NCBI GenBank assembly: GCA_951812345.1
Contig: OX638295.1
Span: 2,668,965 to 2,732,964 of the forward strand
From: Rhodothermales bacterium
GTDB lineage: Bacteria > Bacteroidota > Rhodothermia > Rhodothermales > VXPQ01
DNA: 64,000 bases
Direction of reading: 5' to 3'
The position numbers were made by a program, and so were the translations under genes. The notes under the pieces are model-generated. The model searched no databases, was not told where the DNA came from, and saw nothing but the letters and a program-made list of their open reading frames with translations. Below are positions 8,804 to 14,655 of this stretch, one piece after another. Each line of letters starts with the position of its first letter. Within the stretch, counting starts at the first letter, position 1.

Positions 8804-10798
8804 TTATCGCATTCCGGAGAAATGCAGATTACGCCAGGCATCCACCTCGACATGCCACGAGGGAGCCACGAAAACGGTTGCATCGTACTGGGCCACCACG
8901 GCAGGACCGTCCAACGCATGGCCGAAGCGCAACCGGTCGCGATCGTACAGCGCCGCCATGACTTCTTCCCCGCTATCCAGCACGACAGGGGTTTCCCCGA
9001 CCTGCGCGGCTTCGGACGTCTCCGACGCGTCGGCCCGGTCCGTATCCTGCGGCAGACGAACTTCGGCCCCGGCCGCCGTTCCCCGCACGCGTAGCGTCAC
9101 GATCTCCACAAGGACGTCCCGCATGGCGTACCCGTACCGGCGGGTGTGTTGTTCATGGAAACGCTCCCGGGCGCGTTCGGGTCTCGCGGGGTCCATCGGT
9201 ACGGTCAATTCGTAGCTCTGCCCCCGGTACCGCATATCCGCAAGGGTTTCGATGGCGGGACGCCCGCAATCCTCCCCGGAAAAGACGTTCAGAATCCGTT
9301 CGGTTTCCTGCGCATAGAGGGCTTCGAGGCCGGTTGGGTCGTCGGGGGCGGAAACAGACGTATCGTACACGATGTCCGCCATCAACAGACCCAGCGCACT
9401 CAGTACGCCGGGCTGCGGAGGGAGTAGCATGCGGCGGATCGAGAGCGCATCCGCCAGTTCGCAGGCATGAAGCGGTCCGGCGCCCCCGAACGGGACCAGC
9501 GTATGGTCCTTCGGATCGTACCCGCGCTCGACGGATACCCGGCGCAAGGCGCGCTCCATCGACGCATTGGCGATCCGGACGACGCCCAGCGCCGTTTCGT
9601 GGAGGGACAGCCCCAGCGGACGGCCCAGTTTTTCCACGGCGTCCTGCGCAGCGCCAGCGTCGAGGGCGAAATCGCCCCCCAGAAACCGGTCGGGCAGGAT
9701 GCGGCCCAGCGTCACATTCGCATCCGTGACGGTAGGCGCATCTCCGCCCCGCCCGTAGCACGCCGGACCCGGTACGGCCCCGGCGCTTTCGGGGCCGACA
9801 CGGAGCGCCCCCGCCGCGTCGGCATGGGCAATGCTCCCCCCGCCGGCCCCTACTGTATGAATATCGACGGAAGGAAGGCGCAGCGGCAACCCCGCAATGT
9901 CGCTTTCGGCGGTGCGCGGTATTTCGCCGGGGCATAACGCCACGTCCGTACTGGTGCCCCCCATGTCGAGCGTGAGAATCTTCGGCGCCCGCTCGCCGAG
10001 CGCGGTTCCGGCAAGCCGGAAGGCGCCCACGACCCCGCCGGCCGGACCGCTGAGCACAAGGCGGGCGGAACGACGCGCCGCCTGTTTCGTCCCGATGACG
10101 CCCCCGTTCGATTGCATGATGCGCACCCGCCTCGGCGCTACGGCGCGTTCGAGCCGGTCCAGATACCGCGCCACGATGGGTTGCACATAGGCATTCACGA
10201 CGGTGGCGGCCGTCCGTTCGTATTCCCGGTATTCCGGCAGAATATCCGCGCTCAGGGAAAACCGCGCATCGGGAAGGTATTCCTTCAGAATCGCCGCCGC
10301 TTTCCGTTCATGTTCCGGATACAGGAACGAGAACAGAAACACGATGGCCACCCCGGCCACGTCCAGGCGTTGCAGGCTTTCGCCCAGCTCGGCCACTTCG
10401 TGTTCGTCAAGAGGAGTCAGGATCGAGCCGTCGGCACCCACCCGCTCCGTGACTCCGAAGCGCAGGTCCTCGGGCACGAGCGGGGGCGGGCGGTGCTGGG
10501 ACAGCGCATACAGGGCGGGCCGGTTCTGGCGCCCGATCGCCAGGACGTCGCGAAAACCTCTGGTCGTCACAAGGGCGCAGCGCGCGCCGCGATGTTCGAG
10601 GAGCGCATTCGTGGCCGTGGTGGTGCCGTGTGCAATGGCCGCAGTTTCGCCAGCCCCGAGCAGCCGTACGCCTTCTTCCACAGCGCGGCTCTGGTCATCC
10701 GGCGTGGTGGCCGTCTTGCGAATGACAGGCGTACCGCCCTTCAGGTACACGAAATCCGTGAACGTGCCGCCCGTGTCGATCCCGATGCGTTCCGTCAT
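8804..10798 (-). CDS. hyuA: hydantoinase A / 5-oxoprolinase subunit A family protein
   Basis: The 664-residue protein opens with the actin-like ATPase phosphate-binding motif GIDTGGTFTDFVYL. It carries LTLDMGGTSTDVALCPGE, the VGAGGGSIAH segment and VPFGGAGPLHACELA, all hallmarks of the HyuA/oxoprolinase A subunit. It binds and hydrolyses ATP to drive ring opening by the partner hyuB, which follows in the same operon. Upstream lies a 257-bp inverted-repeat element that occupies the whole gap to lexA, so the promoter is either inside or across that element. The length is normal for the family (about 650-700). Confidence 0.94.
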   Translation of the reverse strand: MTERIGIDTGGTFTDFVYLKGGTPVIRKTATTPDDQSRAVEEGVRLLGAGETAAIAHGTTTATNALLEHRGARCALVTTRGFRDVLAIGRQNRPALYALSQHRPPPLVPEDLRFGVTERVGADGSILTPLDEHEVAELGESLQRLDVAGVAIVFLFSFLYPEHERKAAAILKEYLPDARFSLSADILPEYREYERTAATVVNAYVQPIVARYLDRLERAVAPRRVRIMQSNGGVIGTKQAARRSARLVLSGPAGGVVGAFRLAGTALGERAPKILTLDMGGTSTDVALCPGEIPRTAESDIAGLPLRLPSVDIHTVGAGGGSIAHADAAGALRVGPESAGAVPGPACYGRGGDAPTVTDANVTLGRILPDRFLGGDFALDAGAAQDAVEKLGRPLGLSLHETALGVVRIANASMERALRRVSVERGYDPKDHTLVPFGGAGPLHACELADALSIRRMLLPPQPGVLSALGLLMADIVYDTSVSAPDDPTGLEALYAQETERILNVFSGEDCGRPAIETLADMRYRGQSYELTVPMDPARPERARERFHEQHTRRYGYAMRDVLVEIVTLRVRGTAAGAEVRLPQDTDRADASETSEAAQVGETPVVLDSGEEVMAALYDRDRLRFGHALDGPAVVAQYDATVFVAPSWHVEVDAWRNLHFSGMR

Positions 10799-11059: not shown

Positions 11060-11713
11060 TTAATAATTGCGAGGCGGGCCGTACGTATGGGTATGGTGGA
11101 TGCCGGTATGGTTCACATGCCCTACGTATCGTCCCAGCACCCGGACTTCCTCGAAAATATCCGGCTTGATGCGGATATCCTCGTACTCCTCGTTGGCCGG
11201 TTCGAGGCGCAACCCGTCCCCATCGTAGTACACCCGCTTCAAAGACGTCTCGCCATTGTAGAGAATGGCGCCGATGCCCCCGTTGGGAATATCGTCGTCT
11301 ATCAGCAGCACATAATCGCCGTCACGGATGTCGGCGCCGATCATCGATTGCCCCGATACACGGATCGCAAAGATGCGGTCGAGATTAGGAAAGAGCGTCT
11401 CCAGCGTGATGGTCCCCAGATCGGCATCGACAGCTTCCTGCAACTGTCCCGCCGATATAATGCCGCGCACAGGGATACCCACTGCACTCGTCAGAAAGTC
11501 GTCTTCGTTGATGAGGCGGTATCCCCGGTTGCCCCGCGTCAGAAATTCCTTCTTCCAGAGGGCATCCAGGTTCTGGGTTACGCTGTTGGGAGATCGGAAC
11601 CCGAAATGAGCAGCAATCTGGCGATACGTGGGCCACACCCGGTGGGCGCGCACGTATTCCGAGATATACCGGAGAAATTCGTATTGCTTCGATGTCAGTT
11701 TTTTACGACTCAT
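11060..11713 (-). CDS. lexA: LexA-type SOS repressor
   Basis: This 217-residue protein has an N-terminal winged helix (KQYEFLRYISEYVRAH to NSVTQNLDAL) followed by an S24 peptidase domain. The self-cleavage site is Ala88-Gly89 in ISAGQ, the nucleophile is Ser123 in SGQSM, and the general base is Lys159 in SLKRVYY. The spacing matches E. coli LexA (84/85, 119, 156). RecA-stimulated self-cleavage would derepress DNA-damage genes. recO lies just upstream on the same strand, a fitting neighbour. The C-terminal tail HHTHTYGPPRNY is an extension of unknown use. Confidence 0.92.
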   Translation of the reverse strand: MSRKKLTSKQYEFLRYISEYVRAHRVWPTYRQIAAHFGFRSPNSVTQNLDALWKKEFLTRGNRGYRLINEDDFLTSAVGIPVRGIISAGQLQEAVDADLGTITLETLFPNLDRIFAIRVSGQSMIGADIRDGDYVLLIDDDIPNGGIGAILYNGETSLKRVYYDGDGLRLEPANEEYEDIRIKPDIFEEVRVLGRYVGHVNHTGIHHTHTYGPPRNY

Positions 11714-12015: not shown

Positions 12016-12774
12016 TCATTTGGGGTTGAGGAGTTGCTTCACCACGCGGCTCCCGCGTGTCGGCAAGGCGTCCTCGACGTGATACCGCAGAAAATCCTCG
12101 ATCAGCCGACCCAGTTCCGCAGCCGTGCGCTCGTCCAGTCGCATCTGCATGATCGTATCGGGATCGGCGCAGGCGACAATAGCGAACGCACGCAAGGTCC
12201 GGCGTGGGGCAAAGCGCATGGTTTCACGGTTCCGGAGAGACCCGGACGGCTCCACCGACCCGGTTTCCAGCAGGAGCACACCGCCGGATTCAGGGATGCG
12301 CTCGACCTCTTCCCGGTCGATGTGCGGCGCAAAACCAAGAATGTTCGCCAGCCGCAACTGGAAGAAATAGAATATGTGCTCGGCTCGATCCGCATGACGA
12401 TCCAGCCGGTCCAGCACATTCAGGATAAGCTGGAACACGAGCGGGTTCTCGTCCTCGTCCTGCATCAGCGCTTGAACGAGTTCGACCACGCGCTGGCCGT
12501 ATGCGAGCGCCGCAAGATGCTTGTGCAGGTCCCCGAACGTTCGAATGTGGCTGCTTTCGGAAAGCGTCTGTACCTGCCGGGTATCCTTCCAGTACAGGAC
12601 GGCCTGCACATACGACATGGGTTGCAGGGTCGATCCGAACCGGCTTTTCGGCCGTAGCGCTCCCCGGGCCATGACAGCAACCTTTCCCTTCTCCCTTGTA
12701 AAGAGGGTCACAATCCGGCTGGTCTCGCCGTACTGGATACTTCTGAGCACGATGGCTTCCGTGCGAACGATCAT
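12016..12774 (-). CDS. recO: DNA repair protein RecO
   Basis: This 252-residue protein has an N-terminal OB fold (MIVRTEAIVLRSIQYGETSR, then TREKGKVAVMARGALRPKS), followed by the helical C-terminal domain. RecO loads RecA at gaps together with RecR and anneals SSB-coated strands in the RecFOR pathway. The zinc-finger cysteines found in some RecO proteins are absent here (GFAPHIDREE has none). It lies upstream of lexA on the same strand with the copy B element between them, and is divergent from comEA, whose ATG is 55 bp away. Confidence 0.93.
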   Translation of the reverse strand: MIVRTEAIVLRSIQYGETSRIVTLFTREKGKVAVMARGALRPKSRFGSTLQPMSYVQAVLYWKDTRQVQTLSESSHIRTFGDLHKHLAALAYGQRVVELVQALMQDEDENPLVFQLILNVLDRLDRHADRAEHIFYFFQLRLANILGFAPHIDREEVERIPESGGVLLLETGSVEPSGSLRNRETMRFAPRRTLRAFAIVACADPDTIMQMRLDERTAAELGRLIEDFLRYHVEDALPTRGSRVVKQLLNPK

Positions 12775-12829: not shown

Positions 12830-13399
12830 ATGCGACTGCTTCATCGCTTGCAGCAACGACTAAGCCTGACGAAACACGAGGCCATGGCACTTGCGTGCCT
12901 GTCGGGGTTGTTCATTATCGGCATTATTGTGCGTCAAGTCCAGCAACAAGCCATATTGGTGCCGCCGGACGCGTACGACGAACTGGACCGCATCTTTTTC
13001 GAGCGGTCGGAGAAAGAAAACGGCGCAACGCCGGATGCTATTGCGCCGGCGCTTCTTGCCGCCGCCAGCGAAGCAGATTCCGGCAAGCACGAGATAGCCG
13101 CCGCGACGGCCTCCTCGATCCGCGAGCCGCCCGGGAAACCATCCGCTTCGGGAGCACTGCACATCGACATAAACCGGGCGGGCGCATCGGAGCTCGAAAA
13201 ACTGCCCCGTATCGGACCGAAGACCGCCGAACGCATTCTTGCGTTTCGGGATGCCTATGGGGCGTTTCGCTCGGTAAACGATCTGCAGCAGGTGAAAGGC
13301 ATCGGACCAAAGACCCTTGAACTCCTTCGACCTCACGTTTACGTGGGGGCGTCTCCCCCGCTCGCCGATTCGTCTTCCAGCGATTCGTCGGCCGGGTGA
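12830..13399 (+). CDS. comEA: ComEA-family helix-hairpin-helix DNA-binding protein
   Basis: The 189-residue protein has a single N-terminal membrane helix (ALACLSGLFIIGIIVRQV), a low-complexity Ala/Ser/Glu linker, then a C-terminal double helix-hairpin-helix: INRAGASELEKLPRIGPKTA and VKGIGPKTLELL. ComEA proteins bind incoming double-stranded DNA at the outer face of the membrane during natural transformation. The ATG at 12830 follows AGGA at a good distance. The C-terminal Ser/Asp tail overlaps, on the other strand, the last codons of a small membrane-protein gene. No other competence gene is in the window. Confidence 0.88.
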   Translation: MRLLHRLQQRLSLTKHEAMALACLSGLFIIGIIVRQVQQQAILVPPDAYDELDRIFFERSEKENGATPDAIAPALLAAASEADSGKHEIAAATASSIREPPGKPSASGALHIDINRAGASELEKLPRIGPKTAERILAFRDAYGAFRSVNDLQQVKGIGPKTLELLRPHVYVGASPPLADSSSSDSSAG

Positions 13400-13533
13400 T
13401 ACGGGTCTTCCGTCCAGGCTTCGGCAACCTGTTCCTCGCGCTTCAGAAACCGGTATACCGGCACCAGCAACAATGCGGCCAGCGCAAAAAAACCGACCAG
13501 TGCAAGAAGAATGACCCCGTTGTACCCATTCAT
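13339..13533 (-). CDS. small single-pass membrane protein
   Basis: A 64-residue product with one hydrophobic helix near the N-terminus (GVILLALVGFFALAALLLVP), then a basic KRE segment and an acidic tail with DPYHPADESLEDES. The 3' end overlaps comEA by 61 bp on the opposite strand. No clear Shine-Dalgarno sequence is visible before the ATG at 13533. The coherent membrane segment followed by a charged cytosolic tail argues for a real gene, but it could be chance in a GC-rich overlap. Function unknown. Confidence 0.5.
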   Translation of the reverse strand: MNGYNGVILLALVGFFALAALLLVPVYRFLKREEQVAEAWTEDPYHPADESLEDESASGGDAPT

Positions 13534-13574
13534 GGAATCACGCAAAAAATCATTGAAACAGGAGGTTAATCCCT

Positions 13575-14333
13575 ATGAAGAACGCCCCTGCACGCATGTT
13601 GATCGTCGACGGCGACATAAAAATGTCCACAAGCTTGCGTAGCATCTTTGAACAGCAGGAATACACCGTAACCGGGGCCTGGGACGGAGAGCAGGGGCTC
13701 CACCTCCTGACCCGGATGCCCGCATACGACATCGTACTGCTCGAAACCGCGATACCCCGAAAAAACGGCTTCGATGTATTACGCGAAGCTCGGCTCGCCG
13801 GCGTCACGACCCCGATTATCATGCTGACATTTCAGGCAAACGCCAACGACAAGCTGCGGGCATTCGATATCGGCGCAGACGATTACGTAACAAAACCGTT
13901 TCATATAGAGGAACTCGCGGCCCGGGTAAAGGCAATGCTTCGACGCAGCAGCCTACCGGCCGAACACCCCTCGGATACCTACGATTTCGGGAGCCTGCAT
14001 GTGAATTTCAGCAGTCACACGGCCCATCGCAACGGCGACGCCGTTCGACTCACCGCAAAAGAGTTCGATATACTCCGGTATTTTATCGAACACCGGGGCC
14101 GGGCCGTCAGCCGGAGACAGATCCTGCGCAACATATGGGGGATTCCGTTCGACGTGTCGACGCGCACTATCGACCGGCATGTCTCGGCGCTCCGCAAGAA
14201 AATAGAACCCGATCCCGAAGACCCGACATGGATCAAGACCGTGTACGGCGTCGGGTACCGGTTCGTGCAGCGCCCGTGCCACGAGGCAAAGCTCCATCCT
14301 GTGCCGGCGCCCGGATACTACGGGCACACGTGA
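13575..14333 (+). CDS. OmpR/PhoB-type response regulator with Glu at the phosphoacceptor position
   Basis: The 252-residue protein has an N-terminal receiver domain and a C-terminal winged-helix domain (RLTAKEFDILRYFIEHRGRA ... TIDRHVSALRKKIEPDP ... TVYGVGYRF). In the receiver, the position normally held by the phosphorylated Asp is Glu57 (DIVLLETAIP), and the acidic pair reads VDGD. The conserved Thr (IIMLTF) and Lys (VTKPF) remain. A D-to-E change can mimic the phosphorylated state, so it may be constitutively active. No histidine kinase is next to it. A strong GGAGG precedes the ATG. Targets unknown. Confidence 0.9.
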   Translation: MKNAPARMLIVDGDIKMSTSLRSIFEQQEYTVTGAWDGEQGLHLLTRMPAYDIVLLETAIPRKNGFDVLREARLAGVTTPIIMLTFQANANDKLRAFDIGADDYVTKPFHIEELAARVKAMLRRSSLPAEHPSDTYDFGSLHVNFSSHTAHRNGDAVRLTAKEFDILRYFIEHRGRAVSRRQILRNIWGIPFDVSTRTIDRHVSALRKKIEPDPEDPTWIKTVYGVGYRFVQRPCHEAKLHPVPAPGYYGHT

Positions 14334-14385: not shown

Positions 14386-14655
14386 ATGGTCAACACCCTT
14401 TCCATCGCCAGCGATCTTTCCGAAGCAGGCATCGAAAAGCCCCACGCCGAAGCGATTGCGAACGCTATCGGAACCCGGCAAGAAGACGTTGCCACAAAAG
14501 ATTTTGTGCGCGCGGAAATAAGCACTGTGCGCGCTGAAATAAGCACCGTCCGCACTGAAATGAGCGCCCTCGAAACCCGCCTTGTGCGCTGGATGGTCGG
14601 AACGGTTTTCGCAGCCTCCGGCCTGCTGTTCGCCACCCTGCGATTCATACCGTAA
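14386..14655 (+). CDS. short coiled-coil membrane protein (DUF1640/CCDC90-like)
   Basis: An 89-residue protein with an N-terminal helix rich in acidic residues and Ala (AGIEKPHAEAIANAIGT), a middle coiled coil made of near-identical 7-residue blocks (RAEISTV, RAEISTV, RTEMSAL), and a C-terminal membrane helix (MVGTVFAASGLLFATLRF). Small proteins of this pattern are common in bacteria and are usually annotated DUF1640. The role is unknown. It follows the response regulator by 50 bp on the same strand and ends about 10 bp from the convergent nagB gene. Confidence 0.7.
   Translation: MVNTLSIASDLSEAGIEKPHAEAIANAIGTRQEDVATKDFVRAEISTVRAEISTVRTEMSALETRLVRWMVGTVFAASGLLFATLRFIP

Follow-up and report, generated by a model that had tools for sequence, protein, structure and literature searches.

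Aspartate-less receivers, or pseudo-receivers, are defined in PMC4395418 and PMC12632262 as receivers without the phosphorylated Asp. They amount to roughly 4% of all receivers (cited in PMC12632262), and the Asp is most often replaced by Glu, in 26% (PMC4395418). The residue at T+1 is generally small, giving access to the phosphorylation site; a small T+1 residue and an acidic second metal-binding position are described as less common in the pseudo-receivers (PMC12632262). The same 2025 review calls the activation and inactivation of bacterial pseudo-receivers a mystery. Among the closest described systems is CmrT (Clostridioides difficile). In PMC12548384 it is presented as an OmpR-family regulator whose receiver lacks the Asp, and constitutive activity is inferred for it. 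Its crystal structure (PDB 2QZJ) contains hydrogen bonds among the D-G-D, E, T, and K residues, and no metal. In the mutants described there, dimerisation was reduced by D9A and by K102A but not substantially affected by E53A or T80A; the quadruple mutant showed the severest motility defect. ChxR (Chlamydia trachomatis), of the OmpR/PhoB family, is reported to form dimers, bind DNA, and activate without phosphorylation (PMC3960148). HP1043, also called HsrA (Helicobacter pylori), is reported as an orphan OmpR/PhoB regulator that works without phosphorylation.

The window analysed here, a 64-kb stretch at contig positions 2668965-2732964 of a 2.8-Mb Rhodothermales genome assembled as one contig, contains an aspartate-less regulator of the OmpR/PhoB type. 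Its features and those of the neighbouring genes are given below, with window coordinates; the names recO-like and lexA-like are our presumption.

11060..11713, minus strand: presumed lexA-like gene, syntenic marker, positioned by neighbourhood comparison
12016..12774, minus strand: presumed recO-like gene, syntenic marker, positioned by neighbourhood comparison
12836..13399, plus strand: helix-hairpin-helix (HHH) protein, syntenic marker from gene-neighbourhood comparison, start codon not settled
13560..13565, plus strand: AGGAGG, likely ribosome-binding site, from the sequence
13575..14333, plus strand: OmpR/PhoB-family response regulator with an aspartate-less receiver, 252 amino acids, from the ORF, Pfam, and the predicted fold
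13599..13931, plus strand: receiver domain, residues 9-119, Pfam Response_reg (81.3 bits, cut-off 30.2), predicted fold matching solved receivers
13608..13616, plus strand: acidic pair D12-G13-D14, in which Gly stands at the place of the second acid (Gly in three genus copies, Ser in two, Asp in one)
13743..13745, plus strand: codon GAA for Glu57 at the phosphorylated-Asp site, GAA in 6/6 genus copies
13827..13832, plus strand: retained switch Thr T85 and, at T+1, F86, from the alignment (Phe in 6/6 genus copies and 0/32 other subfamily copies)
13884..13895, plus strand: Y104 to K107, the switch aromatic residue and the pocket Lys, kept in 6/6 genus copies
14037..14264, plus strand: winged-helix DNA-binding domain, residues 155-230, Pfam Trans_reg_C (98.6 bits, above cut-off)

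The ORF starts with ATG, nine bases after the AGGAGG. The predicted structure (mean pLDDT 83.3, pTM 0.58) contains a complete receiver, with five strands alternating with five helices. Over its full length, the model fits PrrA best (Z 24.7, rmsd 2.8 over 225 residues). The structure 2hqr, an "atypical orphan response regulator" that we take to be HP1043, is also among the fold matches. NCBIfam matches came from 95 families; the 25 shown all fell below their cut-offs, and thus gave no named equivalog. The protein has the receiver and the Trans_reg_C domain of the OmpR/PhoB family, with Glu57 in place of the Asp phospho-acceptor in all six genus copies. Judged by its sequence, it is an atypical OmpR/PhoB member by descent and domain make-up, not a canonical phospho-regulator. 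Its PF00072 receiver without the phospho-Asp places it among the aspartate-less receivers; with no partner kinase gene nearby, it is also an orphan.

The gene is present in five other genomes of the genus, with 78-88% identity, and each of the six copies sits in a block with lexA-, recO-, and HHH-like genes. The alignment of these copies showed that D12, D14, Glu57, T85, F86, Y104, and K107 are invariant. The P61 and G65 residues are likewise invariant, and residues 195-214 of the DNA-binding domain are identical in all six. The preliminary description had read a Glu at the phospho-site, a VDGD stretch in place of the usual acidic pair, and a retained switch Thr and Lys; each of these readings was confirmed, and Y104 is retained as well. 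It had proposed an alignment of orthologues for the conservation of Glu57, which proved to be complete in the genus. It had further stated that orthologues with Asp would refute its reading and suggest a strain-specific mutation or an error. A strain-specific mutation or sequencing error is rejected at the genus level, where all six genomes carry Glu57, although Asp prevails in the rest of the subfamily (29/32 copies).

Four pocket positions are atypical in the genus (13, 57, 59, and 86), including two changes that the preliminary description did not mention: the Phe at T+1, and an Ala (five copies) or Val (one copy) at D+2, position 59. The acidic pair reads D-G-D in the window, G003, and G004, D-S-D in G001 and G002, and D-D-D in G005, with Glu57 throughout. 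The codons at position 13 (GGC, AGC, and GAC) fit a loss of D13 on the genus stem followed by a return of Asp in G005; the changes may also have occurred in other orders. Marks that are typical of the pseudo-receivers, though not required of them, are found in the Gly or Ser at position 13 (5/6) and the Phe at T+1 (6/6), in a sample of six related genomes that provides weak statistics for any single residue. A Phe at T+1 would be expected to cover the phosphorylation site.

Homologues of the regulator were searched in 114 genomes of the order, and 93 copies were identified at E <= 1e-60 in 50 genomes; all 93 were recovered. From the tree of these sequences, a subfamily of 38 copies (six from the genus and 32 others) was set apart by hand, leaving 55. 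Asp occupies position 57 in 84 of the 93 copies, and it is universal in the remaining 55/55. The non-genus subfamily copies have Asp57 in 29/32 and Asp13 in 31/32; the three without Asp57 contain Asn (G034), Lys (G016), and Glu (G011). At T+1, these 32 copies never carry Phe: Val occurs in 21, all of them with Asp57, Ala in 9, and Ser and Gly in one each. The comparison is uneven, with 24 of the 32 copies coming from family f14, all with Asp, so neither the Asp nor the Val count is made up of independent observations. Outside f14 and the genus, Asp is found in 5/8 subfamily copies, which belong to the other five families. The eight aligned subfamily copies from other Rhodothermales families show 47-60% identity. 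In the 55 remaining copies, T+1 is Gly or Ala in 54. The 69 relatives outside the order (the best 80 loci of a search, minus 11 from the order) all have Asp57, Asp13, and Ala at T+1, and 63 of them have Met at D+2. Six receiver matches were found for other proteins of the same genome; five were aligned and all have Asp, and the sixth, a weak match, was left unaligned. Against this background, the Glu57 shared by the genus is no product of chance.

Two of the non-Asp copies have further changes in the pocket. The G016 copy (L039, 9072-9758, plus strand), located beside recO and HHH, contains Lys57, Ala85, and Gly107, and no kinase hit was found for it. G027, from the same family as G016, has an intact pocket and a kinase. 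The G011 copy (G011:C47; L275, 10950-11627, minus strand) contains Glu57, Ala85 for the switch Thr, and Leu107 for the pocket Lys. Its DNA-binding part is well conserved, with 64.2% mean identity to the Asp copies.

A tree of 48 rows was built without the pocket columns. The genus Glu group has one origin (99/99), on a long stem of 0.53. By parsimony, the nine copies without Asp imply four changes; a single clade of all nine was rejected (p-AU 0.0104). A shared Glu origin of the genus and G011 gave a p-AU of 0.575, so that the losses may be three instead of four; the well-supported branches alone force two changes of Asp. Phylogenetic analysis thus indicates that Asp was lost more than once in the subfamily.

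The preliminary description had noted that no kinase gene is adjacent. This is true, as the profile search identified 14 HATPase_c matches in the genome and none inside the 64-kb window, but it is not diagnostic. Among the 28 non-genus subfamily copies whose flanks were examined (of 32; 25 Asp-bearing, 20 from family f14), a kinase lies directly upstream in two, G010 and G027. A further kinase hit lies about 1.4 kb downstream of the G074 copy, on the other strand. No kinase hit was found in the fetched flanks of 22/25 Asp-bearing copies, in a search with two kinase proteins as queries (E 1e-5 or 1e-3) that a divergent kinase could escape. The absent neighbour was therefore rejected as evidence: the Asp copies mostly lack one too (2/25 directly upstream), and a missing kinase by itself carries little information. 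The kinases of G010 and G027 are 60% identical over 349 residues; across 40 genomes, further hits of the G010 kinase reach 47% identity at most among the matches listed. HisKA matches number five in this genome, 5-8 across the six genus genomes, and 17-69 in seven genomes of other families. The corresponding receiver matches are 5-9 in the six genus genomes versus 30-77 in the seven others.

The gene neighbourhood extends beyond the genus. Of the 28 subfamily copies examined in other Rhodothermales families, 19 adjoin recO and HHH. In the window, a 64-residue ORF oriented divergently from the regulator (13339-13533, minus strand), with the look of a single-span membrane protein, overlaps the end of the HHH gene. 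Its conserved core reads GF..LA..LL.P...FL..E......WT. No Pfam family matches it above cut-off, and counterparts occur in 89/114 genomes of the order. A role as a dedicated partner of the regulator was rejected for this ORF, since the regulator is found in 0/9 further stretches around it; six of these nine lie beside recO and HHH and three (G011, G086, and G008) beside neither. Just downstream of the regulator (14386-14655, plus strand) is an 89-residue ORF, which resembles a CCDC90-like coiled coil weakly (29.3 bits, cut-off 33.5). Within it, a short motif (RAEISTV/RTEMS) is repeated, apparently a different number of times in different genus members. At L031, a sister regulator (9263-9940, plus strand) faces a second regulator of OmpR type tail to tail (9975-10682, minus strand), and the same arrangement is found in L030, L033, L037, L040, L104-L106, and L108, giving nine loci. 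The nearest kinase hit is 4.5-5.4 kb away in L031, L033, L104, L105, and L108, and none was seen in the stretches examined for L030, L037, L040, and L106. The DNA upstream of the six genus copies was aligned; no binding motif was derived and no target genes were found, and the conservation there may stem from the overlapping small ORF.

Taken together, these data make it likely that the regulator is an orphan OmpR/PhoB-type factor with a pseudo-receiver, which acts independently of phosphorylation and probably dimerises constitutively. Phosphorylation independence, as predicted in the preliminary description, is well supported at the sequence level by the loss of Asp (6/6), the loss of the second acid (5/6), the Phe at T+1 (6/6), and purifying selection. 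The Glu57, D12, D14, T85, and K107 residues might form a metal-free hydrogen-bonded pocket like the one solved for CmrT, which would lock the receiver in an active-like state. The locked receiver could then support dimerisation and DNA binding without a kinase, and control might be exerted via the amount of the protein or via partners. The further claim of permanent activity is plausible by analogy, because the pocket matches that of CmrT. Against the preferred reading stands G005, in which the acidic pair is intact together with Glu57. According to PMC4395418, an Asp-to-Glu change alone is often insufficient, and the small effect of E53A and T80A in CmrT likewise weighs against it.

A less probable explanation is that the receiver is unphosphorylated yet not simply "on", and responds to another input, such as a ligand, a partner protein, a heterodimer, or another modification; RitR and BldM/WhiI are examples. 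PMC12632262 describes inputs of this kind for other pseudo-receivers, and selection maintains the receiver in the genus. However, no candidate input was found. The sole Cys of the window protein, C235, lies in the variable tail and is unconserved in the genus, which makes a conserved redox switch improbable. The retained set of T85, Y104, and K107 fits a frozen phospho-like state instead.

It is quite improbable that the receiver is merely an inactive remnant in decay, with the protein acting, if at all, by its DNA-binding domain alone. The pocket is far gone in the two families of G016 and G011, and the genus receiver is more diverged from the Asp copies than the DNA-binding domain (51.4% versus 61.4% identity; among the Asp copies 67.2% versus 72.5%). 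This gap is even larger in two Asp copies, G013 and G072, so the divergence of the genus receiver is not specific. Moreover, P61, G65, T85, Y104, and K107 do not vary within the genus, and pairwise dN/dS, over 15 pairs for each domain, ranges from 0.09 to 0.20 in the receiver and from 0.06 to 0.25 in the DNA-binding domain. The receiver values point to purifying selection, and the reading frames are intact in 6/6 copies. From these codon comparisons, the regulator is a protein under selection and no pseudogene.

It is barely credible that the protein is still phosphorylation-dependent, with Glu57 or a nearby acid accepting phosphate from a distant kinase or small phosphodonors: the five HisKA matches in the genome, the D-D-D of G005, and a phosphorylatable Glu, as cited in PMC4395418, might speak for it, but the second metal-binding acid is lost in 5/6 copies, Phe stands at T+1 in 6/6, and the authors of PMC4395418 state that they knew of no example of Glu phosphorylation in bacterial signalling.

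An orphan factor with a constitutively dimerising pseudo-receiver, the preferred explanation, might also be viewed against its relatives. Kinase control in the subfamily may have weakened before Asp was lost in the genus, because a kinase lies directly upstream of any copy in only two of the seven families seen, T+1 is Val in 21/29 Asp copies, and Asp was lost repeatedly. We tentatively suggest, as a possibility on which we would not insist, a natural series within the order: G010 and G027, normal and with a kinase; the orphans that keep Asp; the locked-on genus factor; and the strongly altered G016 and G011 copies. Under this suggestion, the subfamily was already drifting from kinase control, and repeated Asp losses followed. 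Such a series of states in one subfamily, within one bacterial order, is the added value of this locus. The phospho-site of one gene varies between Asp, Glu, Asn, and Lys, and some copies have a kinase next to them while others have none; the sequence of kinase loss, narrowed access to the site, and Asp replacement would thus be open to testing. Among the papers listed on Rhodothermales/Rhodothermaeota response regulators and two-component systems, none had a title concerning this gene.

By comparison with the known systems, the regulator joins the well-described class of aspartate-less receivers, for which ChxR and HP1043 are the OmpR-type precedents. ChxR, likened here by its description, also has Glu at the phospho-site, but it is described as lacking part of the secondary structure in the pocket region (PMC4395418), whereas all five strands and helices are present in the window receiver model. 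The HP1043 receiver is described as highly degenerate (PMC8345958), whereas the window protein keeps the Thr, Tyr, and Lys. AtvR (Pseudomonas aeruginosa) is similar in the Asp-to-Glu change, the loss of one DD residue, and the retained T/S, K, and Y residues, although it belongs to the NarL family and not to the OmpR family, as described in PMC12548384. CmrT shares the D-G-D, the Glu at the phospho-site, and the retained Thr and Lys (PMC12548384); the full set is present in the window protein, G003, and G004. The sequence match to CmrT has an E value of 2.8e-13, and the window receiver model fits 2qzj with a Z of 21.2 and an rmsd of 1.2 over 121 residues (30% identity), a fit that many ordinary receivers equal. 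In the available description, CmrT is encoded together with a kinase and another regulator (cmrRST), and has no Pro at D+4; the window protein has no nearby kinase, and has P61 at D+4.
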